From Pyrocephalus nanus (taxonomy: Eukaryota; Chordata; Aves; Passeriformes; Tyrannidae), in the NCBI GenBank assembly GCA_038380795.1, contig CM076259.1:29184977-29248976 (forward strand): DNA of 64,000 nt, given 5' to 3'. A program made the position numbers and the translations under genes. This document shows, in pieces, positions 27,733 through 55,377 of this stretch. The notes below the pieces were generated by a model. The model was not told the origin of the DNA. It was given only the letters and a program-made list of their open reading frames with translations, and made no database searches. Positions within the stretch are counted from its first letter, which is position 1, and each line of letters starts with the position of its first letter.

Positions 27733-30700
27733 TCAGACAAATTTGACTGCCAGTTCACAAATACGATAGCAACTTGTGAAGCAAAGAACGTTATTCCAGT
27801 TACTGTAAGTGTTGGAGTCTCTGTTTCCCTTGACATGAATTGCAGCACATCTTTCTGCAAAGAGCAAATTGGGTTCTCCAGGTTTCCAGAACCTGAAAAA
27901 GAAAGTTCCTCTGCTGGAAATACATTAGCATGCCTGACAGTGGAGGTGAAGTCACCTCAAACAGTTGTGGAAGAGAAAGGGAAGGTTACTGTGATAGGAA
28001 TCAGGATCCATAGTTTTGACTAGAAAACTGGTCAAGTTTTCTGACTTACAGGGCAGTTGAATACAGAAATCCCCTTCTGATACATACCTGCCTTAGACAA
28101 TGTATTGGTCACTTGGACTGAGGAGGAGTGAATTACAGGACCTTTCCCACTCCACCAGAATACTCACGTGGCTGTCTTCTCATATGGAGTCTGATCCACC
28201 CACTGCCATTGCCCATTTCGGTAAGAAGTTAAGCCTATGTAGTATTTTGTTTCATAGGTGTTAGTAACTTTTTCTTTTGCCAAATTGAAGAGGAACTCCT
28301 GGAAGAAAGTTCATTGTCCATAAGGTGCAGGACTGAGCAGAGGGAGTAACTAGGAGTCCCGGTGGGGTGAGGCTGATGGCAGAGGGGACCCGGTGATGCA
28401 GGGGTGCAGACAGGACATCTCCTCTCCCCTGCAGGGGTGCAGACAGAATAATGCCCCCTCCTAGCAGGACAAGGAGGGGCTCTGAGCCTCCTTCGGGGCC
28501 CAGCACTGAGTCTATGGCAGCTCTGCCTCTCTCTCTGTGCACGTACCTGCTCTTCCCTGCTGTTGATCACCACCAGGTGGGAGCCCATCCCAGTGCAGTT
28601 CTGCTCACTCTCAGCCCAGGACATCGTATCAAGGGACAGAAAATAGCAGCTATTTTGAAACCTTTTCCAGCCCTTTGGGCAGCACATCCAGCCTTCCACT
28701 GTGGGGGAAAAAATGCTCCTTTTCAACAAGGTGTGGTGTCCTTCATCTCTGTGAGCTTAGTGTAAGTTTCCAAGTGATGAGGGGGCAGGGGTGGTTTGAA
28801 CCAGCTTTGGTCTGATCAGAGGTAAATGCTCTCTTCAGCATCCTAATAAATAAAGCTGTCAACATCCTAACAGGCTCCTGTCACAAGCCCCCTGCCTGAA
28901 GAGCCTTTCCCTTTTTCTAGCTGTTCTGCCACATCCATGAAACCTCTGTTTGGTGAGAGACACGGTTTCTGCCTTACCCTTCCTGAGGAAGCAAGATGGG
29001 AAGTAGTTGGCTTGCACTCCTATGAAAACCCTTCCATCAGAAAAGTATTGTCCGAGCTCTCAATTCATGCAGACTGACAGACGTGCAGTAAACTGCTCTG
29101 ATTGCCTTGCTGCCACCACAGTTCCTTAAACAGTTGGGTTATCCTAGAGATCTGTCTTATAGCCAGAAAGTCACATGATGGATTAAAAACCAACAGATTT
29201 ATTCTCCCAAAGCATGAGGCTACATGAGAACAGATTTCTGACCTGAGTTTGGGAGCTTCCACTGCAGGCATTCTAGCTATTGATATTGCCATCACTTCAT
29301 GTGTGATTACAGCCCAGCTCTCCAGCTACTCTGAACGCTTGACAATATCCTCCAATCTCTGTCCCGCTCACTGATTATGATGCCTGTATCAACAAGCAGG
29401 GAGCCAGAGAGGATGGAGCTGAACCAACCTGGACAAAAGGATGAAGCAGTTTCAGCTAGATTAGTGAACCAGACTAACTAACAGTTGAGGGCTTGTGTGA
29501 GCAGAAGAGTAGAAAAGTTAGTCAAATGCAGGTATGGAACAACCCACCCTCTTCCACTGGACCAGAACAGGTTTTCATGGCATCCTAAGTAAAACTGCGC
29601 AATACAGAATCTTCTTCCCTTGAATCCATATCTTTCTTCCTTAAAACAATCCCGTTCTAACTGACAGTGACATTCCCAACCTCAAAGACTGAGTGACATC
29701 AGAGTAAACGTTGGTGAAGTTCTTTGTGTTGCTTATGAGGGTCTCAACATCACTCACTTTTGTCTGCAGAAACGTTGGGAACACAGTGCCACTCTGTAGA
29801 GTTCTGGAGCAGAGTCTTGTACTGGCCATAGCCTCCATGAAGTAAAACAACTGGGAAGAGAGGAACGAGAAGGAAAGTGCTACTGTCACCCTTTCCTCCT
29901 CATTCATAGGCAACCTGTCCCATCCTCCATCTTCTGGCTTAGAGCCCCCACAGAGACTCTGTTATGTGACCAAGCTCTGAAATCTGTATTGAACAAGGAG
30001 GTGAGAAACAGCGCGCCATTCCTCCCACTGCCAGTCACCCCTCCCTCAGATGAACTTGTCTCACCTCTGCTGGCTGAGAGACTCATTTTCCCAGCTGACA
30101 AAAAAAACAGCTTGGACATTCCTCTGGGATGGAGTCAGGAAAGGGACAAAGAAATCATGGGATAGGCTTAATAAAGGTGGAAAGGGTTCCTTGAATCCTA
30201 GGGGAAGTAAAAGACCCTGGAACCCACCAAGGCAGATGATCACAAAGGCAGTTTTGATGACAAGGACTGAAATAAGGCAGACCCAGGGGTTCAGCCAGGA
30301 GCAGCTTCTCTCTTCTGCTGGGGCTGAAAAACAAAAGCAAGAGTGGGAATCCCCCAGACCAGAGTCAGGGGCACCATAACCCAGGTGACTCTGTATCCCA
30401 GCAGCCTGCTGGTACCCTTGTTCCAAGGACTGGGGAGTCTCACAGGTGCTGTAAGCAGGTCCTGCTGCCTGTCAATAGCCATGAGTCAGACCCACAGAGC
30501 AGAGTAACACAGGGGCTGCCTTGAAGCTGCTTTATTGTTTTGCTGGTTGTCATAAGACCTTCCTCTACTCTGTCCAAACTGCACTCCGATTGTTTCTAAA
30601 GGGAAAACAGGCACCTAGAAGCTCTTGGGACAGCCCTTGCTTGGTTTTCCTTAGAGACACCAGAGATGGAAGAAGAGACCTGTGCTCAGCTTGATGCAGA

Positions 30701-31036
30701 CTGTTTTACCAGGGTAAAGACAGCACTCTTCAGTCCCACTGTTTACAGAACAAAACACTAAAATGAATGGCAGACCATAGTCTGCCTGGACTTTTATTCC
30801 CCCCAGCTCTAGGAAAAAGGTCATTCTCCCAGCCCAGGCACTCCCCAGTTCCCTCATCTGTTGCATTGCCCTTGACCTAAGCCCCTTCTCCTGCTCTGAG
30901 GACAGCCACCATACCATGCCCATTATCCATCCTAGCCCTGTATTTCCCCCACCTCTTCCATCTTCTACAGGAGGACAGAAAGGAAGGGTATGTGGTTACC
31001 TGCAGTTCCAGGACTGACTCCCCCTTGGCAATTCAT
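27733..31036 (-). CDS. gene A: CLEC4-type C-type lectin receptor, activating form with EPN motif
   Basis: Six exons on the - strand: 31000-31036 (ATG), 30228-30323, 29758-29850, 28547-28698, 28168-28298 and 27733-27892 (TGA). They join in phase to 222 residues. Residues 1-12 form a short tail without tyrosine. Residues 22-44 form the membrane segment with Lys36 in [17 protein letters not shown]. Residues 45-75 form the stalk with Cys67 and sequons at Asn61 and Asn70. Residues 79-222 form the lectin domain: [26 protein letters not shown] at 176-178, WNN at 202-204, RICE near the end. The architecture is that of CLEC4 receptors such as Mincle, in which a basic membrane residue pairs with an ITAM adaptor; that role here is inference. 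EPN usually marks mannose-type calcium sites. The first lectin exon is nearly identical to B-D, while the other two are diverged. Which mammalian CLEC4 member it matches is not decidable by eye. Confidence 0.87.
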
Positions 31037-31650
31037 TCTCTCCACCAGTGTGAAAACAGAGTTCACTCTTCTCCAAGAGCCCGCGTTACCAATGTGACTC
31101 CAAACGCAGCCTTCCTACTACCCAGGGCAGCTCCCACACTGGTGAGGAGCCTTCACAGTGTCTAATCTGGTGTGCAGGAAAAAGCCATATCCTGGGTGTT
31201 CCCCACAGCACATGGAGATTGGGGAATTTTCATCATTTCCCTGCCAGGACATTTCACAAGATGCTCCTTGCAACACAGAATCTCACAGAGACAAAAGGAA
31301 ACAGATGAAGAGTAGCATCATTCCAGCTCAATCAACCTCCTTTTGCACATACTCAAGGAGTTTCACAGGACATAATGTTGGCCTTCCCTATTTGGTACTT
31401 GCTCTTTCCTAGTGAGGGACTATGTGTGTGAAAATGACAATGCTGCTGGTATTTGCTACTAGAGGGCTAAATGCACTCACAACATCCTGCAAAAGGGAGT
31501 CCAAAAATGGCAAGAAACCATATCTGTGACTCATCCTTAGCAGCCCACATGAAGCCTGAGCCCAGTAACCCAAAGCACAACAAAGAACTTGCCAACACTA
31601 TTTTTAACTAACTGCTCAGGGAAAGAGGATGGAGCTTTGAGCAGAGAGGC
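29435..31650. repeat. A-type segmental repeat, copy in gene A
   Basis: Contains the stalk 1 exon, the Lys membrane exon, exon 1 and upstream DNA. It is nearly identical to 43530-45750 over most of its length and to 37190-38728 over the membrane exon to exon 1 part. Similarity of A and C starts at GAAGCAGTTTCAGC. Confidence 0.85.
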
Positions 31651-32254: not shown

Positions 32255-35200
32255 CATCCCCTTTTCTGGAAGCAGAGTTCCCCTAGCCTCACACACTTCC
32301 TGCTGCAGACGCAGGGCTCGTGTGTATCCACACCACTTCCTACAGCCCGCTGACCCACAGGCCGGTGGGACAGCACAGGGTCACATACACACACTGCAGC
32401 TGTGCCTCTGTACCTGCTGCAGCCCTGACTGCCACGAGTGCAGGCCACCCACGGCATCCACGGTGAGGCTGCTCTCTTACAGACAGATGCTGCAAAGTTG
32501 CAGAACAGCCTGATGTCGACTGCCACTTCCTTCCCATTTCTCTGTTTTCCCTCTGTTGCCCTGTTTCTTCCAAATTTGGTTTTCAGACTGATATTTCTCT
32601 GTCTCAGAAGCCTTTTTTTAATTCTCCAATTACTGTTAACCTGGTGGTCCTCTTATTCTATTACAGCAGCTCTGCTTCAACGGAGGGGAGATGGTCTTTA
32701 TCTTAGTTCCCTAGAGAGCAGTCACAGAGCCAAGAGTTGCACTTGCAGTTGCATTTGCTATGCAGAGATGGCACTGTTTGGTCAGGAAAGCCTGGGCAGA
32801 TGATGTTTCCTGGGGCAAACAAAAGTGAGGACAGAGGGAAGGGGTTGAGAAAAAGTTGAGATCCATGGTGGCATATGGTCTGCATCAGGACATGAAGGCA
32901 ATTCAGTAGGCAATGAACTGCTGGAAGGGACTTCATGTGCAGCAGCAGCCCTGCCCTGCCCCTTGCAGCCTCTTCTGCAACATGACCTGGCCTGGGCAGG
33001 CATGCCCTAGCAGGGACCATGGAGGATTTGGCCTTCCACGAATGCTGCTGCATCAGGTGAGCTTGGGATCACCTCTGACTTGGGAAGAGGACTTCTTCCT
33101 CCACGTGGCACTCAAGGCCCAGAGTGCATTGCTGTTCCCATGGGAGCAAGTCCAGAGGGAGAGCCACGGAGATGGAGGCAAAGGGAAAGGAGGCAGAGGG
33201 CTGGAGCACCTCTCCTTTAAAGAAAGCCTGCGGCATTTGTACAGCCTGGGGAAGTGAAGACTCCAAGGTGACCTTAGAGCAGCCTTCCAGTCCCTAAAGG
33301 AGGCTTACAGCAAGGCTGCAGAGGCACCTTTCACAAGGCCGTGTCGTGATGCCACAAGGGTTCCTGGCTGTAAACTGAGCAAGGGTAGGTTAGATTAGAT
33401 TCCAGGAAGAAATTCTCTACTGTGACGTTGGTGAAGCACTGGCACAGGTTTCCCAGAGGAGCTGTGGATGCCCAATCCCTGCAAGTGTTCAAGGCCAGGC
33501 TGGATGGGGCTTTGAGCAACCTGCTCAAGTGGAAGGCCTCCCTGTTGAAGACCCAGGGCTTGAAACTAGATGATCTATAAGGGTCCTGTCCAACACAAAC
33601 CATTCCACAATTCAAGGATTATACCCCTGCAGATTAGAGATGGAAAGAGAGAAAGAGAGATCTATACACACTGCACAGAGACTTTTTTCATTGGTCTAAT
33701 ACTGTATTTCTCTTGCATAAGATGTCAGACTTTGTTCAGCAAAATCAGGACAAGTGCAGGACATTCTGTGTGACTCAACAGAAAGCAGAGACTTCTGCTC
33801 AAGCAGACAAAGGAACTTGCAGCTCAGGACATCTGTCTTCCATTCCTGTGTCTTCTTCCTGGAGAACTCCATGTCTTTTCTGCCAGTGGCCACTGGACCC
33901 ACTCGGAGAGAAGAGGACACAAGAACACAGGACCTGCTTTGATGACCCTCAGCCTTCATGTGTTCCCTCAGCCCCTCCGTGCACTGGAGATGCTGGACAA
34001 AGGGTCATATCACTTCCACTCCCGTTATCCCACCCAGCACAGTGAAAATGCAGGCTTCAGGGCTCCCCACCCCTCCCAGCACAGCCCAGCACCAGTCCCA
34101 GCTCACTGCTCATCACTCAGATTTACTAAGGATGAGGGTATCTTCATCACACAGTGACAGCAGCAGCTTCACAAATTCGATGATACATCAAACATCCGAC
34201 ATTATTCCAGTTGTTGGGTATTTCTGAATCTCTGTGTATTACAACACACTTCTCATCGTCATGCTCACTTGGTTCATCTGTTCGCCAGAACCTGAGAGAG
34301 AGACAGGCATGTCACTCCCCAGCTTTCATCATAAAACACTGCTGGAAAAGGCCACAGAGGGATGCAGGACTTGAAGGGGAGAGACAAAGATTCCCACTGC
34401 TGATTCATGGACAGAAGCAATACCCTTCCTCCCTCTCTGATATCCCACTGGCACCAGTGTCACATGGGAACCTGCCTTCTTCCTCCAGCCTTCCAACACA
34501 GAAGGGCCCTCATCCTTCCTTCTGGGGGGAACTGATCACCAGCACTCAACCCATCAGCTTCACACCCAGCAGAGACATGTGTCTGTCTCCAGGGCAAGTC
34601 TGTGATCCCTCCCTCTCACACACCAACAATACCCTCACATCTCCCCTTCTTTCTTGCACTACCAGGAGCCACACCAATCACTCTCCATCCAGGGATACTC
34701 ACGCTGCTGTCACATTATAGGGAGTCTTGTCCACCCACTGCCACTGATCCTTAATCTCTGCTCTCAGACCGATGTAGAAATTCGGCCTTCTTGTACCTTG
34801 TTTTATCTGCCCAGACAGGAAAACCTGGAAATGAGGGAGAGTGCAATGTCTGTGAGATGCAGGATTGATCAGAGGGAGACATCAGGAGTCCCTATGGGGT
34901 AGGGATGGTGGCACACAGAACCCAGTGCAGGACAAGGAGGAGCTCTGAGCCCCCTCCAGGGCCCAGCACTGTGTCTGTGGTTGCTCTACCCCTCTCTCAG
35001 CCCTGTGCATGTACCTGCTCTTCCTCACTGTTGATCACCACCAGGTGGGAGCCCATCCCAGTGCAGTTCTGCTCACTCTCAGCCCAGGACATCATATCAA
35101 GGGACAGAAAATAGCAGCTGTTTTGAAACCTTTTCCAGCCCTTTGGGCAGCACATCCAGCCTTGGCCTGTGTGGGGAGAGAACACAGAAATTAATGCAAT

Positions 35201-36438: not shown

Positions 36439-38300
36439 TTACTAACTCAGTCAATGGTATAGACTGAAAACTGATCAGCATGTGCTTTGCAGTACAGAGG
36501 TCTATCTCCTTCAATCATTTCATTTAGAAATATTCTAGTGAGGAAAGCGGAGTAATCATAGTCGATAGCAATCATTGCCTGATTAATGAATTCCTATAAT
36601 GCAAGAAAGGTCAGAGGAGATGGGCAAAGGCGCTGTGTGACTGACCACCTCTGATGCAAATAAATGGGACCTTATGTCTACACACATGGAATGAGAAGAT
36701 AGTGGTCTTTGTTTTAGTTCCCCTGACTGAATTGATCACCTGAGTAACTGTTCAGTCCTATAAAGATCAAAAAGAGGGGAGTGTCTTCCTAAGTTCGCCA
36801 TGCAACCCCTGTTCAGTGAGAGATGAATTTTTTGTCTTACCCTTCCTGAGGAAGCAAGATGGGAAGTAGTTGTCTCATGATCCTCTGGAATCACATCCAC
36901 CAGAGTAGTATTGGCCAAGCTCTTAACTCATGCAGACTAAGACACATACAGTAAACTGCTCTGACAGCCTTGCAACCACCACAGGCAGTTCCTTATGTAG
37001 CCAGATTATCCAAGAGATCTGGTTTATAGCCAGAAAGTCAAATGATGGATTAAAAATTTACAGATTTATCTGTGTAAAGCAGGAGGCTACATAAGAACAG
37101 ATCTCTGGCCTGAGTTTGGGAAGGGCTGTTTTGGATACGGACATTTGCGTGCTGGCAGAGACACTAGGATTTTTCTTTTTCCCTATCTGAGAAAAGGCTG
37201 TGAAATGGTCCCTTCATCCCAAGGGAATTAAAAGACCCTGGAACCCACCAAAGCAGATGGTCACAAAGGCAGTTTTGATGACAAGGACTGAAATAAGGCA
37301 GACCCAGGGGTTCAGCCAGGAGCAGCTTCTCTCTTCTGCTGGGGCTGAAAAACACAAAGCAAGAGTGGGAATCCCCCAGACCAGAGTCAGGGGCACCATA
37401 ACCCAGGTGACTCTGTACCCCAGCAGCCTGCTGGTACCCTTGTTCCAAGGACTGGGGAGTCTCACAGGTGCTGTAAGCAGGTCCTGCTGCCTGTCAATAG
37501 CCATGGGTCAGACCCACAGAGCAGAGTAACACAGGGGCTGCCTTGAAGCTGCTTTCTGTTTTGCTGGTTGTCACAAGACCTGCCTCTACTCTGTCCAAAC
37601 TTCACGCCTCCTTTATGCTGTCAGACATCCTCTCTCCTCAAACTCATTTTCCTTTTTACCCCCCATTACCCCTGTCTTTCACTAAATGCTCTTTTTGTAC
37701 CTCTCTCCTCTTCATCTCGCTTGCCAGCTTCTTTCTCTCAGCTGCCTTTGTTTTGGCCCTATATCATAAGCCCCTTTATGCAACAGTTTATATTCAACCA
37801 AATGAGCCACTCTCGAGCTCAATGTTTGCACAACTAGACAATCAGAGAAATGATTGTTTCTAAAGGGAAAACAGGCACCTAGAAGCTCTTGGGACAGCCC
37901 TTGCTTGGTTTTCCTTAGAGACACCAGAGGTGGAAGAAGAGACCTGTGCTCAGCTTGATGCAGACTGTTTTACCAGGGTAAAGACAGCACTCTTCAGTCC
38001 CACTGTTTACAGAATAAAACACTGAAATGAATGGCAGACCATAGTCTGCCTGGAGTTTCATTCCCCCTGGCTCTAGGAAAAAGGTCATTCTCCCAGCCCA
38101 GGCACTCCCCAGTTCCCTCATCCGTTGCATTGCCCTTGACCTAAGCCCCTTCTCCTGCTCTGAGGACAGCCACCATACCATGCCCATTATCCATCCCAGC
38201 TCCATATTTCCCCCACCTCTTCCATCTTCTACAGGAGGACAGAAAGGAAGGGTATGTGGTTACCTGCAGTTCCAGGACTGACTCCCCCTTGGCAATTCAT
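34147..38300 (-). CDS. gene B: CLEC4-type lectin receptor, activating-type 5' half with D-like ectodomain
   Basis: Exons on the - strand: 38264-38300 (ATG), 37249-37344, 35780-35872, 35015-35166, 34703-34824 and 34147-34291 (TGA). They give 214 residues. The 12-residue tail is the same as in A (starts [12 protein letters not shown]), and Lys36 lies inside the membrane segment. The stalk differs from A (type 2: contains FTAWEC, Cys67). The lectin domain has CCPKGW, QNCTG (sequon), YIGL, WQWVD, NVTA (sequon Asn163), EPS at 173-175, WNN at 195-197 and [10 protein letters not shown] at the C-terminus. All acceptors are AG and all donors GT. Predicted type II activating receptor; the adaptor partner is inference. 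The stalk and lectin exons and their introns are almost identical to gene D, except the last exon. No type 1 stalk exon is present between 35.9 and 37.2 kb. Confidence 0.88.
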
Positions 38301-38728
38301 TCTCTCCACCAGTGTGAAAACAGAGCTCACTCTTCTCCAAGAGCCCGCATTACCAATGTGACCCCAAATGCAGCCTTCCTACTACACAGGGCAACGCCCA
38401 CACTGCTGAGGAGCCTTCACAGTCTCTAATCTGGTGCTCAAAAAACCACATACCCTGAGTGTTCTCCACAGCAGTGGAGATTGGGGCACTTTGATCATTT
38501 CCCTGCAAGGACATATCAGAAGACATTCACTGCAAATAATAACACAAAGAGACAAAAGGGAACAGATGAAGAGTCGCATCGTTCCAGTTCAAACAATCTC
38601 CAATGCAGATACTCAAGAAGTACTAGCCTTCCTTCTTTGGTACTTGCTCTTTCCTGGTGAGGGAATGTGTGTGTGAAAATGCCTGTGCTGTTGGTATTTC
38701 CTAGCAAAGGGCTAAATCCACTCACAAC
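37190..38728. repeat. A-type segmental repeat, copy in gene B (shorter)
   Basis: Matches 30165-31480 and 44260-45500. The stalk 1 exon part is missing. It carries an insertion of about 250 T/C-rich bases near 37610-37855 that is absent from the A and C copies. Confidence 0.8.
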
Positions 38729-38732: not shown

Positions 38733-41700
38733 CCTTTTCTGGAAGCAGAGTTCCCCTAGCCTCACACACTTCCTGCTGTAGATGCAGGGCTCGTGTGTAT
38801 CCACACCACTTCCTACAGCCCGCTGACCCACAGGCCGGTGGGACAGCACAGGGTCACATACACACACTGCAGCTGTGCCTCTGTACCTGCTGCAGCCCTG
38901 ACTGCCACGAGTGCAGGCCACCCACGGCATCCACGGTGAGGCTGCTCTCTTACAGACAGATGCTGCAAAGTTGCAGAACAGCCTGATGTCGACTGCCACT
39001 TCCTTCCCATTTCTCTGTTTTCCCTCTGTTGCCCTGTTTCTTCCAAATTTGGTTTTCAGACTGATATTTCTCTGTCTCAGAAGCCTTTTTTTAATTCTCC
39101 AATTACTGTTAACCTGGTGGTCCTCTTATTCTATTACAGCAGCTCTGCTTCAATGGAGGGGAGATGGTCTTTATCTTAGTTCCCTAGAGAGCAGTCACAG
39201 AGCCAAGAGTTGCACTTGCAGTTGCATTTGCTATGCAGAGATGGCACTGTTTGGTCAGGAAAGCCTGGGCAGATGATGTTTCCTGGGGGAAACAGAAGTG
39301 AGGACAGAGGGAAGGGGTTGAGAAAAAGTGAGATCCGTGGTGGCATATGGTCTGCATCAGGACATGAAGGCAATTCAGTAGGCAGTGAACTGCTGGAAGG
39401 GACTTCATGTGCAGCAGCAGCCCTTGCAGCCTCTTCTGCAGCATGACCTGGCCTGGGCAGGCATGCCCTAGCAGGGACCATGGAGGATTTGGCATTCAAG
39501 GCCCAGAGTGCATTGCTTTTCCCATGGGAGCAAGTCCAGAGGGAGAGCCACGGAGATGGAGGCAAAGGGAAAGGAGGCAGAGGGCTGGAGCACCTCTCCT
39601 TTAAAGAAAGCCTGCGGCATTTGTACAGCCTGGGGAAGTAAAGATTCCAAGGTGACCTTAGAGCAGCCTTCCAGTCCCTAAAGGAGGCTTACAGCAAGGC
39701 TGCAGAGGCACCTTTCACAAGGCCATGTTGTGATGCCACAAGGGTTCCTGGCTGTAAACTGAGCGAGGGTAGGTTAGATTAGATTCCAGGAAGAAATTCT
39801 CTACTGTGACGTTGGTGAAGCACTGGCACAGGTTTCCCAGAGGAGCTGTGGATGCCCAATCCCTGCAAGTGTTCAAGGCCAGGCTGGATGGGGCTTTGAG
39901 CAACCTGCTCAAGTGGAAGGCCTCCCTGTTGAAGACCCAGGGCTTAAAACTAGATGATCTATAAGGGTCCTGTCCAACACAAACCATTCCACAATTCAAG
40001 GATTATACCCCTGCAGATTAGAGATGGAAAGAGAGAAAGAGAGATCTATACACACTGCACAGAGACTTTTTTCATTGGTCTAATACTGTATTTCTCTTGC
40101 ATAAGATGTCAGACTTTGTTCAGCAAAATCAGGACAAGTGCAGGACATTCTTTGTGTGACTCAACAGAAAGCAGAGACTTCTGCTCAAGCAGACAAAGGA
40201 ACTTGCAGCTCAGGACATCTGTCTTCCATTCCTGTGTCTTCTTCCTGGAGAACTCCATGTCTTTTCTGCCAGTGGCCACTGGACCCACTCGGAGAGAAGA
40301 GGACACAAGAACACAGGACCTGCTTTGATGACCCTCAGCCTTCATGTGTTCCCTCAGCCCCTCCGTGCACTGGAGATGCTGGACAAAGGGTCATATCACT
40401 TCCACTCCCGTTATCCCACCCAGCACAGTGAAGATGCAGGCTTCAGGGCTCCCCACCCCTCCCAGCACAGCCCAGCACCAGTCCCAGCTCACTGCTCATC
40501 TCTCAGTTTTACTAAGGATGAGGGTATTTCCACCACACAGTTACGGCAGCAGCTTCACAAATCCGACAATGCGTCTGACATCTGACATTATTCCAGTTTT
40601 TGGGTATTTCTGAATCTCTATGTATTGCAACGCAATCCTCATCCTTGTTACCACTTGGTTCATTTCTCTGCCAGAACCTGAGAGAGAGACAGGCATGTCA
40701 CTCCCCAGCTTTCATCATAAAACACTGCTGGAAAAGGCCACAGAGGGATGCAGGACTTGAAGGGGAGAGACAAAGATTCCCACTGCTGATTCATGGACAG
40801 AAGCAATACCCTTCCTCCCTCTCTGATATCCCACTGGCACCAGTGTCACATGGGAACCTGCCTTCTTCCTCCAGCCTTCCAACACAGAAGGGTCCTCATC
40901 CTTCCTTCTGGGGGGAACTGATCACCAGCACTCAACCCATCAGCTTCACACCCAGCAGAGACATGTGTCTGTCTCCAGGGCAAGTTTGTGATCCCTCCCT
41001 CTCACACACCAACAACACCCTCACATCTCCCCTTCTTTCTTGTACTACCAGGAGCACACCAATCACTCTCCATCCAGGGATACTCACGTTGCTGTCACAT
41101 TATAGGGAGTCTTGTCCACCCACTGCCACTGATGCATAGTCTCTGCTCGCAGACCAATGTAGAAATCCTCTCCCCTTGAAGCTTGTTTTATCTGCTCAGA
41201 GAGGAAAACCTAGAAATGAGGGAGAGTGCAATGTCTGTGAGATGCAGGATTGATCAGAAGGAGGCATCAGGAGTCCCTATGGGGTAGGGATGGTGGCAGA
41301 GGGAAGCCAGTCCAGCAGAGTGGACAGGACATTCCCTCTCCCCTGCAGGACAAGGAGGAGCTCTGAGCCCCCTCCAGGGCCCAGCACTGTGTCTGTGGTT
41401 GCTCTACCCCTCTCTCAGCCCTGTGCATGTACCTGCTCTTCCTCACTGTTGATCACCACCAGGTGGGAGCCCATCCCAGTGCAGTTCTGCTCACTCTCAG
41501 CCCAGGACATCTTATCAAGGGACAGAAAATAGCAGCTGTTTTGAAACCTTTTCCAGCCCTTTGGGCAGCACATCCAGCCTTGGCCTGTATGGGGAGAGAA
41601 TATAGGAATTAATGCAATGAATGCTAGCAACAAGAGACATGGTGATTGCAAAGGTCCAAGTTCTCCAGGGACAGTGCTTGTGTTCTCCTAAGTCACTTTT

Positions 41701-42625
41701 CCTGACAGAAAGTGCTTGAAAAACAAGGAGAGTAGAGACTTTCCTTCCCATTGCTTTGGGGTTTGACCAGTGAGGTTTGTGTACACAAAATCCTGGTAAT
41801 CTCCTTGCAGGTCTTCATAAAATTATTTGAGTGGTCTGGTTTGACTCCTCTGCTTCAAGTCAGTCTCCTTTAGGCCTTTAGCCCCAGGAAACAGGGGATA
41901 TTGCTTCTTTCCCTGACTGGAGCTGCCCTTTTATTACTGCTCCATTGTTAACCTCCCCTGGGCCACTCTCTGCTGTCCCCTTTGTCTGGTCAGAGTTCAC
42001 AGCCACGCTGCTCTCCAGGACATCATTAACACGGCCCTCTCCTCCCCCTAAGCTCTTAGCAGGAAACCCTTTTTCTCCCTGCTTCCCTCCTCTGCAGTCT
42101 GCCTCTCCCCGGTCTGCTCCTGCTGCCACTTTGTGTCAGAGCAGCATTCACTGTCCCCATCCCAAAGACCTCCTGTACCCCTGCCAGCCCTACTGACCTT
42201 TGTTTTCTGACACCGCTGAGTTGCACTCCCACGCTGTGAATTTCTCCTGCAGGGCTGTGGGCTGCTTGCTGCTGTGGGAGAAGGGAGCCACTGGAAAGGG
42301 AGAGGAAAGGTGGCAGCATTACCTCTTCCTCCTGGCTCCTCACACAGCGTCTCTGGCCTTCACTCCTCTTCCATCATTTCCACACCAAGCACTGTCCCAG
42401 CCATCTCCTCTCCTGGCCCAAACAACTGGCGTGGCTTCCTTCCCAGCCACAAAGAGACAATCTTGCTTCTCAATTCTCACACAGCAGAAGGAACACTGCA
42501 AGGACACACCCTGAGGACATGCCACACACTGAGTGCATAGGACTTCATAGCCCCCAGTTTCTGGGAATAACACAGTGTTGGTGAATGGTTACATCCAGAA
42601 CCTGAAGGACTTCTTCAGTACCTAC
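38733..42625. repeat. D-type segmental repeat, copy in gene C
   Basis: Matches 32255-36438 and 47103-50771. It lacks about 240 bases present in B and D (equivalent to 36110-36358), where GAGTGCA is joined directly to TAGGACTTC near 42533-42540. Confidence 0.88.
39580..40010 (+). mobile_element. CR1 fragment in D-type repeat (gene C copy)
   Basis: Duplicated copy of the CR1 at 33195-33625, with a few substitutions. Confidence 0.85.
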
Positions 42626-45132
42626 CCCTTCGCTTCCCGTCATGAGGATGTTGAAGACCCCAGTGAGGTCTCCCTTCAGTCTCCTCTTCTCCAGGACGAA
42701 CAGATCAAGTGAACTCAGCCACTCCTCGTAAGGTTTTTCCCCCAGACCCTTCACCCTCCTTGTGACCCTCCTTTGGACACTCTCTAATAGCTGAATGTCT
42801 TTTTTATATTTTTTATATTGTGGTGCCCAAAAGTGCACACAGGACTCAAGGAGAGGCCTCATAGTGGCCTCGATGCCTGATGATGAACGAATTCCTGTAA
42901 TGGAAGAAGGCTCAGAGGAGATGGTCAAGGACGATGACTGACCACCCCTGATGCAAGTAAAGGTGACCTTACAACTACACAAAGGGGGATGATACATTGC
43001 CTTTGTTTTGGTTCAGCTGAGCGAAATGACCAGCTGAGTAATTGTACATCCCTCTAAAGATCACAAAGAGGGTGGTATCTTCCTAAGATAGCCAGAGCAG
43101 CATGGGATGAGTGAATATGTGTATATGAATGCAAATTATGTCTATAAATATGTGAATATGAGCAAATTATGAAAGAGTGTAAAAAATCAAATTATTAACA
43201 GAAACCTACTTGAGGAAAGCACTGGGCCTGAGCTGGCTTTAACTCACACAGTTTGTCTTGGTCACTGGGGACACTGGATGCCTTAATGTTGAGCATATTA
43301 TACAACTGTGTTCAGTTTTGGGCCCAGCAGAACAGGAAAGACATTGAGGTGCTGAGTGTGTCCTGAGAAGGACACTGGAGCTTGTTTGGAGCACAAGTCC
43401 TGTGAGAAGCAGCTCTGGGAGCTGGGGACTTATGGATACCCTTGGGCTTCCCCATGGGAGCATGGGTGGTTGACTGTGATGTTTGTGTGAACAGGCAGGG
43501 AGACAGCACAGGGAATGGAGCTGGATTCATCCAGGATGAAGCAGTTTCAGCTAGATTAGTGAACCAGACTAACTAACAGTTGAGGGCTTGTGTGAGCAGA
43601 AGAGTAGAAAAGTTAGTCAAATGCAGGTATGGAACAACCCACCCTCTTCCACTGGACCAGAACAGGTTTTCATGGCATCCTAAGTAAAACTGTGCAATAC
43701 AGAATCTTCTTCCCTCGAATCCACGTCTTCCTTCCTTAAAATCATCTAGTTCTAACTGACAGTGACATTCCCAACCTCAAAGACTGAGTGACATCAGAGT
43801 AAATGTTGGTGAAGTTCTTTGTGTTGCTTACGAGGGTCCCAACATCACTCACTTTTGTCTGCAGAAACGTTGGGAACACAGTGCCACTCTGTAGAGTTCT
43901 GGAGCAGAGTCTTGTACTGGCCATAGCCTCCATGAAGTAAAACAACTGGGAAGAGAGGAACGAGAAGGAAAGTGCTACTGTCACCCTTTCCTCCTCATTC
44001 ATAGGCAACCTGTCCCATCCTCCATCTTCTGGCTTAGAGCCCCCACAGAGACTCTGTTATGTGACCAAGCTCTGAAATCTGTATTGAACAAGGAGGTGAG
44101 AAACAGCGCGCCATTCCTCCCACTGCCAGTCACCCCTCCCTCAGATGAACTTGTCTCACCTCTGCTGGCTGAGAGACTCATTTTCCCAGCTGACAAAAAA
44201 AACAGCTTGGACATTCCTCTGGGATGGAGTCAGGAAAGGGACAAAGAAATCATGGGATAGGCTTAATAAAGGTGGAAAGGGTTCCTTGAATCCTAGGGGA
44301 AGTAAAAGACCCTGGAACCCACCAAGGCAGATGATCACAAAGGCAGTTTTGATGACAAGGACTGAAATAAGGCAGACCCAGGGGTTCAGCCAGGAGCAGC
44401 TTCTCTCTTCTGCTGGGGCTGAAAAACACAAAGCAAGAGTGGGAATCCCCCAGACCAGAGTCAGGGGCACCATAACCCAGGTGACTCTGTATCCCAGCAG
44501 CCTGCTGGTACCCTTGTTCCAAGGACTGGGGAGTCTCACAGGTGCTGTAAGCAGGTCCTGCTGCCTGTCAATAGCCATGGGTCAGACCCACAGAGCAGAG
44601 TAACACAGGGGCTGCCTTGAAGCTGCTTTATTGTTTTGCTGGTTGTCACAAGACCTGCCTCTACTCTGTCCAAACTGCACTCCGATTGTTTCTAAAGGGA
44701 AAACAGGCACCTAGAAGCTCTTGGGACAGCCCTTGCTTGGTTTTCCTTAGAGACACCAGAGATGGAAGAAGAGACCTGTGCTCAACTTGATGCAGACTGT
44801 TTTACCAGGATAAAGACAGCACTCTTCAGTCCCACTGTTTACAGAACAAAACACTGAAATGAATGGCAGACCATAGTCTACCTGGACTTTTATTCCCCCT
44901 GGCTCTAGGAAAAAGGTCATTCTCCCAGCCCAGGCACTCCCCAGTTCCCTCATCTGTTGCATTGCCCTTGACCTAAGCCCCTTCTCCTGCTCTGAGGACA
45001 GCCACCATACCATGCCCATTATCCATCCCAGCTCCATATTTCCCCCACCTCTTCCATCTTCTACAGGAGGACAGAAAGGAAGGGTATGTGGTTACCTGCA
45101 GTTCCAGGACTGACTCCCCCTTGGCAATTCAT
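40512..45132 (-). CDS. gene C: CLEC4-type lectin receptor, activating type, C-terminal extension and two stalk exons
   Basis: Exons on the - strand: 45096-45132 (ATG), 44323-44418, 42198-42290, 41433-41584, 41088-41209 and 40512-40677 (TAG). They give 221 residues. A further in-phase stalk exon lies at 43853-43945; if included, the protein is 252 residues. The tail and Lys36 membrane exon match A. The type 2 stalk and first lectin exon match B and D. Lectin exon 2 differs at about ten residues ([12 protein letters not shown] versus [12 protein letters not shown]). The last exon carries EPS, WNN and an additional cysteine (CQTHCRICE). The stop used by B and D is TGG here, so the frame runs seven codons further to TAG (ends [10 protein letters not shown]). 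Otherwise intact. Predicted activating type II receptor. Confidence 0.86.
42655..42875 (-). mobile_element. CR1 fragment in gene C intron
   Basis: Read on the - strand it gives a CR1-like 3' segment: GAGAGTGTCCAAAGGAGGGT and CTGGAGAAGAGGAGACTGAA. It is absent from the matching place in genes B and D, so it was inserted after or during formation of C. Confidence 0.75.
43300..43440 (+). mobile_element. CR1 fragment in gene C intron, + strand
   Basis: TTCAGTTTTGGGCCCAGCAG, GAAAGACATTGAGGTGCTGA and GAGCAGCTCTGGGAGCTGGG-like sequence resemble the CR1 stretch just before the 3' end. Diverged. Confidence 0.55.
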
Positions 45133-47102: not shown

Positions 47103-50100
47103 CACTGTTTGGTCAGGAAAGCCTGGGCAGATGATGTTTCCTGGGGCAAACAAAAGTGAGGACAGAGGGAAGGGGTTGAGAAAAAGTGAGATCCATGGTG
47201 GCATATGGTCTGCATCAGGACATGAAGGCAATTCAGTAGGCAATGAACTGCTGGAAGGGACTTCATGTGCAGCAGCAGCCCTGCCCTGCCCCTTGCAGCC
47301 TCTTCTGCAACATGACCTGGCCTGGGCAGGCATGCCCTAGCAGGGACCATGGAGGATTTGGCCTTCCACGAATGCTGCTGCATCAGGTGAGCTTGGGATC
47401 ACCTCTGACTTGGGAAGAGGACTTCTTCCTCCACGTGGCACTCAAGGCCCAGAGTGCATTGCTGTTCCCATGGGAGCAAGTCCAGAGGGAGAGCCACGGA
47501 GATGGAGGCAAAGGGAAAGGAGGCAGAGGGCTGGAGCACCTCTCCTTTAAAGAAAGCCTGCGGCATTTGTACAGCCTGGGGAAGTGAAGACTCCAAGGTG
47601 ACCTTAGAGCAGCCTTCCAGTCCCTAAAGGAGGCTTACAGCAAGGCTGCAGAGGCACCTTTCACAAGGCCGTGTCGTGATGCCACAAGGGTTCCTGGCTG
47701 TAAACTGAGCAAGGGTAGGTTAGATTAGATTCCAGGAAGAAATTCTCTACTGTGACGTTGGTGAAGCACTGGCACAGGTTTCCCAGAGGAGCTGTGGATG
47801 CCCAATCCCTGCAAGTGTTCAAGGCCAGGCTGGATGGGGCTTTGAGCAACCTGCTCAAGTGGAAGGCCTCCCTGTTGAAGACCCAGGGCTTGAAACTAGA
47901 TGATCTATAAGGGTCCTGTCCAACACAAACCATTCCACAATTCAAGGATTATACCCCTGCAGATTAGAGATGGAAAGAGAGAAAGAGAGATCTATACACA
48001 CTGCACAGAGACTTTTTTCATTGGTCTAATACTGTATTTCTCTTGCATACGATTTGTTCAGCAAAACCAGGGCAAGTGCAGGACATTCTGTGTGACTCAA
48101 CAGAAAGCAGAGACTTCTGCTCAAGCAGACAAAGGAACTTGCAGCTCAGGACATCTGTCTTCCATTCCTGTGTCTTCTTCCTGGAGAACTCCATGTCTTT
48201 TCTGCCAGTGGCCACTGGACCCACTCAGAGAGAAGAGGACACAAGAACACAGGACCTGCTTTGATGACCCTCAGCCTTCATGTGTTCCCTCAGCCCCTCC
48301 GTGCACTGGAGATGCTGGACAAAGGGTCATATCACTTCCACTCCCGTTATCCCACCCAGCACAGTGAAAATGCAGGCTTCAGGGCTCCCCACCCCTCCCA
48401 GCACAGCCCAGCACCAGTCCCAGCTCACTGCTCATCACTCAGATTTACTAAGGATGAGGGTATCTTCATCACACAGTGACGGCAGCAGCTTCACAAATCC
48501 AATAATGATTGTGACATCTGACATTATTCCAGTTGTTGGGTATTTCTGAATCCCTATGCATTACAACACACTTCTCATTATCATCCTCACTTGGTTCATC
48601 TGTTCGCCAGAACCTGAGAGAGAGACAGGCATGTCACTCCCCAGCTTTCATCATAAAACACTGCTGGAAAAGGCCACAGAGGGATGCAGGACTTGAAGGG
48701 GAGAGACAAAGATTCCCACTGCTGATTCATGGACAGAAGCAATACCCTTCCTCCCTCTCTGATATCCCACTGGCACCAGTGTCACATGGGAACCTGCCTT
48801 CTTCCTCCAGCCTTCCAACACAGAAGGGCCCTCATCCTTCCTTCTGGGGGGAACTGATCACCAGCACTCAACCCATCAGCTTCACACCCAGCAGAGACAT
48901 GTGTCTGTCTCCAGGGCAAGTTTGTGATCCCTCCCTCTCACACACCAACAATACCCTCACATCTCCCCTTCTTTCTTGTACTACCAGGAGCCACACCAAT
49001 CACTCTCCATCCAGGGATACTCACGCTGCTGTCACATTATAGGGAGTCTTGTCCACCCACTGCCACTGATCCTTAATCTCTGCTCTCAGACCGATGTAGA
49101 AATTCGGCCTTCTTGTACCTTGTTTTATCTGCCCAGACAGGAAAACCTGGAAATGAGGGAGAGTGCAATGTCTGTGAGATGCAGGATTGATCAGAGGGAG
49201 ACATCAGGAGTCCCTATGGGGTAGGGATGGTGGCACACAGAACCCAGTGCAGGACAAGGAGGAGCTCTGAGCCCCCTCCAGGGCCCAGCACTGTGTCTGT
49301 GGTTGCTCTACCCCTCTCTCAGCCCTGTGCATGTACCTGCTCTTCCTCACTGTTGATCACCACCAGGTGGGAGCCCATCCCAGTGCAGTTCTGCTCACTC
49401 TCAGCCCAGGACATCATATCAAGGGACAGAAAATAGCAGCTGTTTTGAAACCTTTTCCAGCCCTTTGGGCAGCACATCCAGCCTTGGCCTGTGTGGGGAG
49501 AGAACACAGAAATTAATGCAATGAATGCTAGCAACAAGAGACATGGTGATTGCAAAGGTCCAAGTTCTCCAGGGACAGTGCTTGTGTTCTCCTAAGTCAC
49601 TTTTCCTGACAGAAAGTGCTTGAAAAACAAGGAGAGTAGAGACATTCCTTCCCATTGCTTTGGGGTTTGACCAGTGAGGTTTGTGTACACAAAATCCTGG
49701 TAATCTCCTTGCAGGTCTTCATAAAATTATTTGAGTGGTCTGGTTTGACTCCTCTGCTTCAAGTCAGTCTCCTTTAGGCCTTTAGCCCCAGGAAACAGGG
49801 GATATTGCTTCTTTCCCTGACTGGAGCTGCCCTTTTATTACTGCTCCATTGTTAACCTCCCCTGGGCCACTCTCTGCTGTCCCCTTTGTCTGGTCAGAGT
49901 TCACAGCCACGCTGCTCTCCAGGACATCATTAACACGGCCCTCTTCTCCCCCTAAGCTCTTAGCAGGAAACCCTTTTTCTCCCTGCTTCCCTCCTCTGCA
50001 GTCTGCCTCTCCCCGGTCTGCTCCTGCTGCCACTTTGTGTCAGAGCAGCATTCACTGTCCCCATCCCAAAGACCTCCTGTACCCCTGCCAGCCCTACTGA

Positions 50101-50771
50101 CCTTTGTTTTCTGACACCGCTGAGTTGCACTCCCACGCTGTGAATTTCTCCTGCAGGGCTGTGGGCTGCTTGCTGCTGTGGGAGAAGGGAGCCACTGGAA
50201 AGGGAGAGGAAAGGTGGCAGCATTACCTCTTCCTCCTGGCTCCTCACACAGCGTCTCTGGCCTTCACTCCTCTTCCATCATTTCCACACCAAGCACTGTC
50301 CCAGCCATCTCCTCTCCTGGCCCAAACAACTGGCGTGGCTGCCTTCCCAGCCACAAAGAGACAATCTTGCTTCTCAATTCTCACACAGCAGAAGGAACAC
50401 TGCAAGGACACACCCTGAGGACATGCCACACACTGAGTGCAGCACTGAGTGCACCCAACCACAGCCACTCTACCATCAACACACCAACAGCCAAGCTGCC
50501 AGTCTAAACCTCTGTACAATCAGTGAATAAAAAGCAGCTCTTCAGGGTCACACTATCACTGCCTAAAGTACATATCAACAGTAATTTGGAGGAGTAGCAC
50601 ATCAGATGGGCCTGTTCCATCAGCAACAGATAGTGCAGGTGATGGTAATCATATACAGGTGGATCTGCTGAAACCAGGGCGGAGGGTAAACTCATAGGAC
50701 TTCCTATCCCCCAGTTTCTGGGGAATAACACAGTGTTGGTGAATGGTCACATCCAGAGCCTGAAGGACTTA
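47103..50771. repeat. D-type segmental repeat, copy in gene D
   Basis: Almost identical to 32772-36438. It spans the 3' flank, CR1 copy, lectin exons and type 2 stalk exon of gene D. The left boundary begins at CACTGTTTGGTCAGG, next to unique DNA. Confidence 0.88.
47525..47955 (+). mobile_element. CR1 fragment in D-type repeat (gene D copy)
   Basis: Duplicated copy of the CR1 at 33195-33625, practically identical. Confidence 0.85.
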
Positions 50772-53700
50772 GTTCTATTTACTTAGCCTCTTCCAGTGCC
50801 CAACCACCGTCAGGATGAAAAACTTTTTCCTAATATAAAACTTAAACCTCCCTTGACTCAGCATCATGCTGTTCTCTTGGGTCATGTCACTGGTCATGAG
50901 AGTGAAGGGATCTGTACTTGACAATTTCTGCAAGCATGCCATGAATGATCTTTAACAAAAAATGAGAATGAAACAGTGATCACAATCTCCACAAACTGCA
51001 TGTGCAAGAATAACTTTTAATTATTAATCTGCAATTAACCCTAAAGAGGTGTGAGAGTTAGCACTGTGCAGCTTATCCTGGAGATGCTAAGACTATGAGA
51101 AGCCATGTGTTCCAAAAGGACACAAAGTGTGTCCAAGCACCTTAGACAGCCTAAGTGCAGATTCAGGTGCCTGTGTAGGCTCTTGTGCTTCCATCTCCAC
51201 TTTTTGCCCTCTCTTAAATGTAATTAAGTTCTTTTTGTGTAGTATGAAGGTAGAGAATTGTTCTGAAGTTCCAGAGAGGCCACGCAAGATGGGAATGTGA
51301 AACCTGGGCACACTGAAAAGACTCAGGTAAACAGTGGAAAATTTGTATGCAGACAAAGTCAGGTCAGGAAAACCTGAGACCTTTATACAAAGCCCAGACA
51401 AGCATGCAGTTCTGGAAATGGCCGTGCTTCAAAACTAGAGACCTCCAGAAGCCCCTTCCCGCCTAAGTCTTTTCATAATTCTAAGGAAGAGGATGGGTAT
51501 AACAGAACCATCTGGCATAATGCTGGGGTAGTCCTGCCTCCCACATGCCAGTTGGCCATAACATCTGGTTTGGCTGGCCTGCAAGAGGGAAGTTTGTGTC
51601 ATGTTGCAACTGTTTGCTCCTAAACATACCATTCAGATGTTCAGCATTTGGGTGTTGTGAACCCAAATGTCGGTGCTTGCATCCTTTTCTCATTACAGAA
51701 TTGTTCTTGAGTAAAAGTCCCCTATGGTTGGAAGGTATTCTCCTCTGGGTTCTGATTTCTCTTCCTTTATCCCAGCACTTCCCCCAGACCTCTCTCCTGT
51801 AACCAGCCTGCACATACTCACCAAGGAGAACAACAACAAGGGCAATGCACGTCAAGAGGAGCAGCAGTGAGGTCAGCCACGGGAGCCATGGTGGGTATTT
51901 CTGGGGATGGTGCTCGTGCTTCTTCGTCTCAGGAGGTGCTAAAAGTGAAGGAACACACCAAACAAAACACCATATACCAAGGATGTACTAATCAAGAGAG
52001 AGCTCCTCAAAAATAAAAAGCAATTAAATTTCTGATGTGGAAGTTACACAGGGACAGACTGGGACAGAGCAGGTGGTTTCCAGAGAAGGTCAAGTCCAGT
52101 GACAGTATTCCTGGTTCCAGCCCAGCTGGTGAACTAACAATGCTAACTGCTGTTGTCAGGAGGTAAAGCCTTCATGTGGCCTCAAAATCTGCAGTGAAAC
52201 TTTGTCTTTCTAGAATGAGCACAAAGCTGCCAAATACAACATTGTTCTACACTTGAGACATTCATACGAAGATTTCATGTTGACTTCTTCCCAGAAAACT
52301 TTTTATGCCTGATTCAGTTCCTTCTGAGCTTTTTGGACTTCCTGTGCAGAAGGTTGGTACAAGATGAATGGGGACAGGAGACGAAAATGTACAATGCTAT
52401 GATGGCTCACAATCATTGAGAGATTAAAAGCTATATTTTTCCCTTCCATCTCCGCTCTCCAAGCCAGGGTTCAGAGATTTGCTGTAATAGGTTCTGTTAG
52501 GATGGATTCCTTGGGAGTACAAAGGGCTGTGTCCAGCAGCCTAAGTAAAGTGTCACACTCAGACTAAGACTTGACAGGACCTGACTTTTGTCTCGGGGGA
52601 TTTTGCCAGTACTGAAGAGGTTTGGAATTAGACAGGAGAGGGAGTCACAGGGAAGGGGAAGCCATCACTTGTTAGGAGACTGTTCTAGCTTGTGGCAGGT
52701 ACACAAGCCAGAGCAAACAGAAAGGTAAAGGGACTGCAGCACTCACTGCAGGACAGGAGTAAATAAGTTTTTGGAGAGACTGACATTAATGATAAGATTT
52801 AGAGAGACCTGTTGCTCAGCATGAAACTCCCAAGTTTGTCATCAGCCATGTTTGCCTGCCAGCCATGCCTAGTAAGCAAGACTTCCAGAAACCTGCTCTT
52901 TGTGGAAGCCTTCTGCCTACTTCCCAAAGGCTACAGAAGGGCAAAAGGCATCATCTTGCATTATCTGTAGAGAAAACATTCATAGACAGACAAGATCCAG
53001 ATTTCCTTGGTCAAATAATGTTTTTCTAGCCAAAGCTTTTGCCTGGAGTGCAAACGAGGAATCAGCTCGTGATCTGGAGTCCAGCCACCTACTTCGGACC
53101 TAACCAGTCCAAATAATTTTTTTGATGTGCAGCACATCCAGAGTATGACTGTTCAACTCGTGCCCGGTCAGACCTGAGCATTCCACACTCACACCCACTC
53201 AGGACAGGGGGCACTGCATGCCATACGTCTCAGTAGCAGTTGTGCTGAGTGCAGTAATCTTGTGCGCACTCAGTGGGTTGAGCTCCCTGCAAAATGCTTT
53301 CCACAGTTGGTCTGCATGCTTGTAACATGTCCAGCATGATCCCAGCATAACAGACTTGATGAGCATACGCTGGTTATTCAGCATGTAAATCCAGCATCTC
53401 CTGGGCACAGGCAGCAAGTGCGGGGCAGCACAGATGCCTGTGTTTTTATCTGGGAAATCCTGGTTGGAAATGAGGAACTCTATCTGCACTGCGGTGTGAA
53501 ACACACCCCAATAGTCTCTGCCATTTCTTGTCAGAGTTCATGTTTGATTAGCCTTCTCCTCTCTAACCTCTTGACTGCCAATTTTGGTATCTCTAGAGCC
53601 CAGCTGGAAGGGGCTTCAGAATGGGAAAACCCAGGTGTGCTTGGCCATTACCAACACAGGGTCTGCATGGCCAGAGTAACCATTCAGAAGAACAACAGAG

Positions 53701-55377
53701 CGGCAAGACTGTCTCAATCTTTCACTAGTAATCATAACACTCATCCTGTGGGCATAATGTGAGGCTGTGAGAGACACAGAACTGTCTGCAATGGTACTAC
53801 CAGACACTTCTCTGCATTCCAAACTACAGACAGTGTGAGATCACTTCAACAGGCACACCCAAAATCAGACTCTGAGCACACCCCCAAACCTATAGCATAA
53901 GCTTTGCATCCACAGCTCAAGCAGACATGGCTGGATCAGATGTCTTTGGAATATAATTTGGAACACAGTGGGGAACTTCCACCACCCCCACCTCACCACA
54001 GTGGAAATGCTAGCTGTATCCAGAACCAGCTGATCTCGGTGCATTGAAAACAGTGAGCTTTCAAGAGAGTAATTTATTTCCATGACTCATGCCTCAGAGC
54101 AGTCAAGGAATAACCTGGAGCTGATGCCTGCTCTGTTTGGGATTGTAAAACTGAGGCAAAGCTACTAATAGGCAAATTAATATCCTTAGCAGCAGTAATT
54201 ATTTATTATTATTTTTTATTCATTGATTTATGCACACATACTTTCACTCCCCTGAAACCTGCTGTTGTGTAGGGTCCTGTATGTCAAGGCAGAAGCAATG
54301 AGCCATACATAAAGCCTCTCTATGTGTTCCTACTTGTGCCATAATGACTGCAGAATACATTCTGATCAGAATATATCTTATATTTGCATAAAGCCCGGTT
54401 AAAAAAAAAAAACAAACCACAACATTTTACCACTGTAATTTTAATAGCAGTAAAAATTTGTTTGTTTGGTGCATTAATTATTTTTCAGGAGTAGCAGAGA
54501 TCAATAACAGAGTTGGATCTTCCTCCAGATCCTAAACAATTCTCCTTATGTGTATTTTAGGGTGTTTTGTTCAAGTTTTGGGTCTCTTTTCTCCAACAAC
54601 CAATTCTCAATCAACCATGGACAATGGCGTTACAAGTTCCTGCAGCCAGTACCACTTCTCATGAAGCTGCAGAGTACAGCTGACTGCTCTACTATAGGGA
54701 GACTCCTGTCCTTATCATAAGCAGGAATCTGTGGTTGCACTCTCTTAGAAGCAAGAGCCGTAGCAGCAAGGGCTTGGGCTTATTTGCTGCTTTGGGAGCC
54801 CCTCCACCTTTGTGACAGATCAGGTTGTTTGTAATAAATCAAAGTCTTTATTGTTGGTACTCAGTACTGTCCAAAAATAACTCTTCCAAGACTACTAACA
54901 TGTGAGGATGCAGCCAGCATGGAAGCTGGGCTAAGCACTACTCCTGTACAGTGCCTATGCTGGACCTTCTACTGTTTGCCACTGTTGATGTTGCAACCAG
55001 GGGACTGAGGGAGCCCAAATACGTTCCTTAATGAATGTTCATTTGAAACCTACTGTTTGTGCTCCCAGTAGTCATCCTTGATCATGCTGCAACTCCAACT
55101 CACCTTTACTCTTGCAGACATTCCTCGAGACTCTTACTTCAAAACTCCTTCAGTCTCCTGCTCATTTACTGGTAGACAGCTCCTTTTTCTCACCAATCCA
55201 TCAAGACCAGGTAGAAACCAGAGGCACAGAAGGAAAAGTCTCTGTTTCCTGGTCTTCCTCCCCCCCTCATGTCTGCTTCATTTCCCCTGAAAAACCCCTC
55301 CATTCCTTACCTTTAATCACTGCAGTCGGTGATGCATTCTTGAACTTCACCTCAGCATAGGTTACTTCTGATGCCAT
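48469..55377 (-). CDS. gene D: DCIR-like (CLEC4A-type) inhibitory C-type lectin receptor with ITIM
   Basis: Exons on the - strand: 55311-55377 (ATG), 51822-51938, 50102-50194, 49337-49488, 49025-49146 and 48469-48613 (TGA). They give 231 residues with all phases matching. The cytoplasmic part starts [13 protein letters not shown]5-T-Y7-A-E-V10 fits the ITIM consensus, and the layout resembles CLEC4A/DCIR, whose ITIM recruits SHP phosphatases. The membrane segment, residues 44-61 ([18 protein letters not shown]), has no charge. The type 2 stalk has a cysteine at FTAWEC. The lectin domain has [30 protein letters not shown] and [10 protein letters not shown]. It is the only gene in the array with a tyrosine motif and an uncharged membrane segment. 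The long first intron (3.4 kb) holds no other recognisable exon. Orthology to CLEC4A itself is likely but unproven. Confidence 0.88.
50785..50960 (-). mobile_element. CR1 fragment in gene D intron
   Basis: CCAGTGCCCAACCACCGTCA and AAAAACTTTTTCCTAATATA are typical of CR1 read in reverse orientation. It abuts the end of the D-type repeat. Confidence 0.7.
51822..51938 (-). other. gene D membrane-spanning exon without charged residue
   Basis: Acceptor TTTTAG, donor GTGAGT, 117 bases, phase 1 at both ends. A His/Lys-rich juxtamembrane part ([13 protein letters not shown]) is followed by 18 uncharged residues. It is clearly different from the 96-base Lys-containing membrane exon shared by A, B and C. 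Confidence 0.85.
55311..55377 (-). other. gene D first coding exon with ITIM
   Basis: ATG at 55377 reading leftwards, 22 codons plus one base, then donor GTAAGG. It encodes VTYAEV at residues 5-10. The base after the ATG is G, but the -3 base is T, so the Kozak context is moderate. The split codon joins G with CA of the membrane exon at 51938 to give Ala. Confidence 0.85.

Follow-up and report, generated by a model that had tools for sequence, protein, structure and literature searches.

A CLEC4-type lectin receptor array in Pyrocephalus nanus with candidate inhibitory, activating and hybrid members

A stretch of 64,000 nucleotides from the genome of Pyrocephalus nanus (Passeriformes; Tyrannidae), GenBank assembly GCA_038380795.1, contig CM076259.1, positions 29,184,977 to 29,248,976 of the forward strand, contains four genes for C-type lectin receptors, here named A, B, C and D. 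This whole stretch is called the window, and all coordinates given below refer to it. The array is probably a tandem cluster of DCIR/Mincle-type CLEC4 receptors, in which B and C would be hybrids combining the signalling end of A with the lectin end of D, and in which gene conversion would later have homogenised most of the shared tract but left out the binding loops. According to this proposal, D would be an inhibitory receptor recruiting SHP phosphatases through a single immunoreceptor tyrosine-based inhibitory motif (ITIM), and A would be an activating Mincle-like receptor, with no signal in its tail and a membrane lysine available for an adaptor bearing an immunoreceptor tyrosine-based activation motif (ITAM), either DAP12 or FcR-gamma. 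A single fusion within intron 2 would have joined the activating 5′ module to copied stalk and lectin exons of D, so that the D lectin scaffold became tied to the opposite signal, and B and C would have arisen from this one fusion by tandem duplication. Conversion between copies would then have homogenised the stalk, exon 4, the introns and the 3′ flank, exempting the ligand-loop segments of exons 5 and 6, where selection may have maintained the differences or the sequence may have come from other copies.

Organisation of the Array

Splice modelling of the 64-kb window yielded four complete type II C-type lectin receptor models, all on the minus strand, in the gene-strand order D (55377 to 48469), C (45132 to 40512), B (38300 to 34147) and A (31036 to 27733). 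The range assigned to the array by the first-pass annotation, a reading of the sequence that preceded this work, was 27733..55377, and its limits coincide with the last base of the stop codon of A and the start codon of D, respectively. All internal splice sites are of the GT-AG type, the frames are open, the phases are compatible, and no stop, frameshift or splice loss was found in any of the four models.

Gene A (exons 31036-31000, 30323-30228, 29850-29758, 28698-28547, 28298-28168 and 27892-27733) encodes a protein of 222 amino acids with a Mincle-like lectin domain and the motif EPN. Gene B (exons 38300-38264, 37344-37249, 35872-35780, 35166-35015, 34824-34703 and 34291-34147) encodes 214 amino acids and has EPS at this position; its exons 1 and 2 are of A type and its exons 3 to 6 of D type. 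Gene D (exons 55377-55311, 51938-51822, 50194-50102, 49488-49337, 49146-49025 and 48613-48469) corresponds to a DCIR-like inhibitory receptor of 231 amino acids, also with EPS, whose first exon contains the ITIM tail and whose second exon encodes an uncharged membrane segment. Gene C, the third with EPS, has seven candidate exons (45132-45096, 44418-44323, 43945-43853, 42290-42198, 41584-41433, 41209-41088 and 40677-40512), giving 252 amino acids when both of its stalk exons are read. The exon phases are 1, 1, 1, 0 and 2 in A, B and D, and C has one phase-1 exon more. The earlier description of four intact six-exon genes on one strand is thus correct as to strand, open frames and the exon number of A, B and D, and has to be amended for C. 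A tblastn search of the window gave no convincing further gene copy, the best match outside the models having an E-value of 0.058.

Relationship to Group II CLEC4 Receptors

The Pfam domain Lectin_C (PF00059) was recognised in all four proteins, with E-values of 2.6e-19 to 5.3e-21 (1.6e-20 for A). Two of the four, A and D, were also compared with solved chains, the two lists covering the 60 best of 210 and of 204 matches. Among the matches listed, A is closest to Mincle (CLEC4E, 8h4v; 1.2e-39), and the best single-domain matches of D are Mincle, MCL and BDCA-2 (1e-34 to 1.6e-32), with DCIR (5b1w) at 6.8e-30. For both queries, the APLEC chains (CLEC4E, CLEC4D, CLEC4C, CLEC4A, CLEC6A and mouse relatives) lie between 1e-39 and 1e-27, and langerin, DC-SIGN and ASGR at about 1e-19 or weaker, while the multi-domain IgY receptor, PLA2R, DEC-205 and mannose receptor score between these two groups or above them through summed domains. 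By sequence similarity, A and D group with Mincle, MCL, BDCA-2, DCIR and Dectin-2, that is, with group II CLEC4 (APLEC). A six-exon organisation is the rule in this group, and the group II layout (type II, with six exons, three of them for the lectin domain) was found in A, B and D; C has seven candidate exons. A search for relatives of D in viral contigs gave one stretch that fitted a pattern and none that was confirmed.

Predicted Opposite Signalling Ends

The gene models bear out what had been described for the cytoplasmic and membrane parts of these receptors. Tyr7 of D lies in the ITIM-type sequence VTYAEV, which matches [VIL]xYxx[VIL] in the cytoplasmic tail, and the membrane segment that follows is uncharged. 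A, B and C have a tail of 12 codons (plus the phase-1 base) without tyrosine, and Lys36 lies within the hydrophobic segment. Inhibition by way of the ITIM is the most likely function of D, and activation by way of an ITAM adaptor bound to Lys36 that of A, B and C. A mid-membrane lysine is the usual partner of DAP12, as in the association described for KIR2DS, TREM and CLEC5A, and arginine is the usual partner of FcR-gamma. Since it is a lysine, and not an arginine, that sits in the middle of the membrane segment, its position makes DAP12 no less likely a partner than FcR-gamma.

The signalling half is conserved between A and C and between B and C. Exons 1 to 3 of A and C differ at 0/226 sites, in comparison with 93/1983 in the remaining stretch of their 5′ half (Fisher p 6.6e-5), in which non-coding sites diverge by 4.7%. 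For B and C, exons 1 and 2 show 2 differences in 133 sites, in comparison with 64 in 1048 outside them.

Hybrid Genes and Their Common Junction

Comparison of the window with itself revealed that A and C have a common 5′ half (29438-31650 and 43533-45755, 95.4% alike) and that B and D have a common 3′ half (32721-36438 and 47052-50771, 98.2% alike). B and C appear to begin with A-type tail and membrane exons and, past a junction in intron 2, to continue with a copy of the lectin end of D. The homology to D stops at one and the same point in both genes, at about 36444 in B and at 42612-42615 in C, which corresponds to about 50770-50777 in intron 2 of D. In B, the junction region extends over 36444..37249 on the minus strand, with A-type sequence upstream on the gene strand, and positions 36798-37121 resemble intron 3 of A; in C, it occupies 42536..43533 of the same strand. 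Beyond the junction, 42881-43094 of C is common to 36580-36800 of B at 76.6%. The same D-type end point, together with this further common sequence, argues for a single fusion followed by tandem duplication. The A-like sequence of B jumps from 29254 to about 30180 of A; B seems to have later lost the stretch holding A's stalk exon, and C about 250 bases adjoining the junction.

Near this junction, C also contains a repeat fragment (42664-42778), which in inverse orientation is 71% alike to positions 119-232 of the window and which we take to be possibly a CR1 piece.

C retains an A-type stalk exon (43853..43945, minus strand), identical to that of A (29850-29758). It is in frame, has phase 1 at both ends and stands beside the D-type stalk exon (42290-42198), and the frame of C survives the skipping of either one. 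Given the 93/1983 background of the A/C comparison, the absence of differences in 93 sites has a probability of only 0.011, so this exon may still be in use. At its other end, C has no stop codon where B and D have theirs and terminates seven codons later.

Divergence Islands in the Lectin Half

In the first-pass annotation, the stalk and lectin domain were described as almost the same in B, C and D. This is the case for the stalk exon, in which B and C differ from D at 1/93 and 0/93 sites, and for exon 4 (0/152 and 1/152). It does not extend to exon 6 in the comparison of B with D, nor to exons 5 and 6 when C is compared with B and D; these are the most divergent portions of the shared tract. 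As exons 4 and 5 are identical in B and D, exon 6 is the sole island between these two genes. The 17 differences in exon 6 of D (48469..48613, minus strand) all lie from 48585 to 48481, in a tract of about 3.4 kb that is otherwise nearly identical. From 50627 to 47221 of D, only 9 of about 3,241 sites differ outside the exon 6 block (summed windows, gap columns uncounted), against 17/166 within it, the block being set by the longer exon 6 of C and consisting of the 145-base exon plus 21 bases past the stop of D. In a smaller tract the contrast is 17/166 against 5/2194 (Fisher p 2.2e-16).

In C, 27 of the 166 sites of this block differ from D, as do 16 of the 122 sites of exon 5 (41088..41209, minus strand), whose adjoining intron 5 has 2/410 differences and one gap. 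The introns are much more alike than the adjoining exon, which is the opposite of the usual pattern. At three sites of exon 6, B, C and D are mutually different. Synonymous sites are also affected: in exon 6 of B and D, the non-synonymous rate (dN) is 0.107 and the synonymous rate (dS) 0.268, and the dN/dS ratio for exons 5 and 6 together is about 0.47-0.62. Owing to this elevation of synonymous differences, the islands appear to have an older or foreign history with respect to their surroundings. The segments of exons 5 and 6 were either spared by a conversion that homogenised the tract around them or imported.

Predicted Ligand Loops and Receptor Pairing

In Mincle, the C-x5-I-C loop lines the glycolipid groove and, taking Mincle as the guide, we assume that this loop and the segment after EPS are the ligand contacts. 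Both differ among the three receptors. The loop, at positions 218-222 of D and bounded by the cysteine and the ICE motif, is LMYHR in B, QTHCR in C and HNHYW in D, and the six residues after EPS (193-198 of D) are EHDDEK, GNKDED and EDDNEK, respectively. In these variable loops, which were picked post hoc, after the variable codons had been seen, the proportion of non-synonymous differences (pN) contrasts strongly with that of the remainder of exons 5 and 6: 0.42 against 0.03 for C and D, and 0.16 against 0.01 for B and D.

These data support in part the proposal that the array pairs inhibitory and activating receptors for the same or a similar ligand. An inhibitory and activating pair built on a single lectin scaffold finds good support in the sequence, with an ITIM on one side and a tail-less lysine receptor on the other, and with a common stalk, exon 4 and fusion point; paired inhibitory and activating signalling in the array is likely. 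The layout may, as the first-pass annotation suggested, be pathogen-driven. B and C also have extracellular parts closely similar to that of D, as expected of paired receptors, with exons 5 and 6 less alike. The same-ligand step is weakened because the expected ligand-contact segments are among those that differ; a ligand shared by B, C and D is possible. The claim of an identical ligand was not adopted in its original form, given that exon 6 (B and D) and exons 5 and 6 (C) are where the shared tract is least alike.

Positive selection measured by dN/dS was also considered and found unsupported, both exon-wide, where dN is lower than dS (exon 6 of B and D), and in the loops, where the proportion of synonymous differences (pS) is close to pN.

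Weighing of the Alternatives

Several observations weigh against the proposed history of the array, beginning with that failure of dN/dS to indicate positive selection. In the loops chosen post hoc, pN/pS is 0.42/0.40 for C and D, 0.16/0.22 for B and D and 0.42/0.49 for B and C and, because pS is as high as pN, adaptive point mutation explains the loops no better than import or old divergence would. The two divergent ends of the B/D tract, discussed below, are alignment ends, where misalignment could inflate the differences. For D, the top score among solved chains (7e-39) belongs to the yolk sac IgY receptor, a multi-domain protein whose several weak domains are summed. Classical calcium-dependent lectins carry WND, and calcium-dependent sugar binding is uncertain here because WNN occupies this position in all four proteins. 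On the minus strand, the 1.5 kb following the stop codons of B (34147) and D (48469) contain no AATAAA or ATTAAA; in A, AATAAA occurs at about +518 and +1076, and in C ATTAAA at about +1416 after the stop. Finally, near-identical repeats leave some chance of an error of assembly or polishing, which is weighed below.

The strongest alternative, to which we give roughly one chance in three, accepts the array as real and attributes exons 5 and 6 to short conversions from other CLEC4 copies, a cassette import, rather than to old divergence protected by selection. It would account for the synonymous differences between B and C in these exons (about 14/53), which exceed those of their own 5′ non-coding sites (64/1048; p 6.5e-6), as well as for the three-way differences in exon 6. 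On the other hand, the window holds no other convincing copy to act as donor, and none is needed for B and D: their tract differs at its two ends at 11/139 (7.9%) and 16/169 (9.5%) sites, and the exon 6 island, at about 10%, resembles an older divergence of the same degree.

It is unlikely that the array results from misjoined or over-polished haplotypes or near-identical repeats, which would make the gene number or the identity of introns false. The identity of B and D over about 3.4 kb might be high enough for short reads to fail in separating the copies. However, the 5′ ends of B, C and D are not the same, a 33-base indel and distinct deletions at the junction set these genes apart, no frame is broken in the four models, and the non-coding sites of A and C differ by 4.7%.

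Slightly less probable still is relaxed constraint, by which B and C would be decaying duplicates with neutral changes in exons 5 and 6. The dN/dS of these exons, the near equality of pS and pN in the loops and the loss in C of the stop position of B and D could be explained in this way. Nevertheless, none of the four models has been disrupted, the adjoining introns are far less divergent, and the non-synonymous changes fall in the (post hoc) loops while the remainder of exons 5 and 6 is conserved. That the lysine module is spliced out, leaving B and C as soluble or otherwise non-signalling decoys, is very improbable: the symmetric phase-1 exons 2 and 3 would permit skipping, but exons 1 and 2 are nearly unchanged between B and C.

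Comparison with Known Receptor Systems

D resembles DCIR (CLEC4A) in its lectin domain match, its type II topology, its single N-terminal ITIM in a closely similar sequence context, its six exons and the EPS found in human DCIR. It differs in having WNN for WND and a lectin end common to the neighbouring activating hybrids. A shares with Mincle, its best solved match, the motif EPN, a basic membrane residue and a short tail without ITIM; however, this residue is arginine in Mincle and a mid-membrane lysine in A, which also has WNN rather than WND.

The proposed history recalls that of KIR, Ly49 and other paired receptor families, whose activating forms arose from inhibitory ones and combine the ligand domain of an inhibitory receptor with a charged membrane module. 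KIR are Ig-like and Ly49 belong to another lectin-like group, and the present array differs in that homogenisation apparently spares the ligand loops. Among birds, the chicken CHIR family likewise contains inhibitory and charged activating members, although these are Ig-like and not lectins.

Surroundings of the Array

Ten flanking frames were scanned for synteny with the mammalian APLEC cluster: two belong to an M60-like peptidase gene, one gave a weak reverse-transcriptase match and seven had no match. The peptidase frames, on the plus strand at 6523-10483, match M60-like_N (6523-7008, E 1.4e-14) and Peptidase_M60 (10046-10483, E 1.9e-37), and the gene is presumably of the TCAF type. A long open frame at 2590-4005, without Pfam match, may begin it. 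The reverse-transcriptase fragment (6980-7387, plus strand; RVT_1, E 0.001, below the curated cut-off) resembles, we assume, the CR1 retrotransposons of birds. The window also contains a (TA)44 microsatellite at 11416-11503 and an AAAAT tandem repeat of about 11 copies at 57604-57657. A scan for promoters with a bacterial model, which is uninformative for this genome, returned zero promoter-like sites.

Significance

Judged from its sequence, this is a real, well-preserved paired-receptor array of a known kind, to whose earlier description are added the apparent fusion that links B and C to D and the observation that the predicted binding loops are the most divergent parts. The fusion creating the activating members can be read straight from intron sequence. 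The segments escaping homogenisation point to residues that may be under conflict and offer concrete loops and chimeras. Paired receptors are usually argued to follow one ligand with opposite signals. We tentatively suggest, at somewhat less than even probability, that conversion here kept updating the scaffold and spared the loops only, giving near-interchangeable heads, each with its own loops, for ligand variants, activating on one side and inhibitory on the other, rather than a one-ligand pair. The array would add a case of lectin paired receptors, probably outside mammals.

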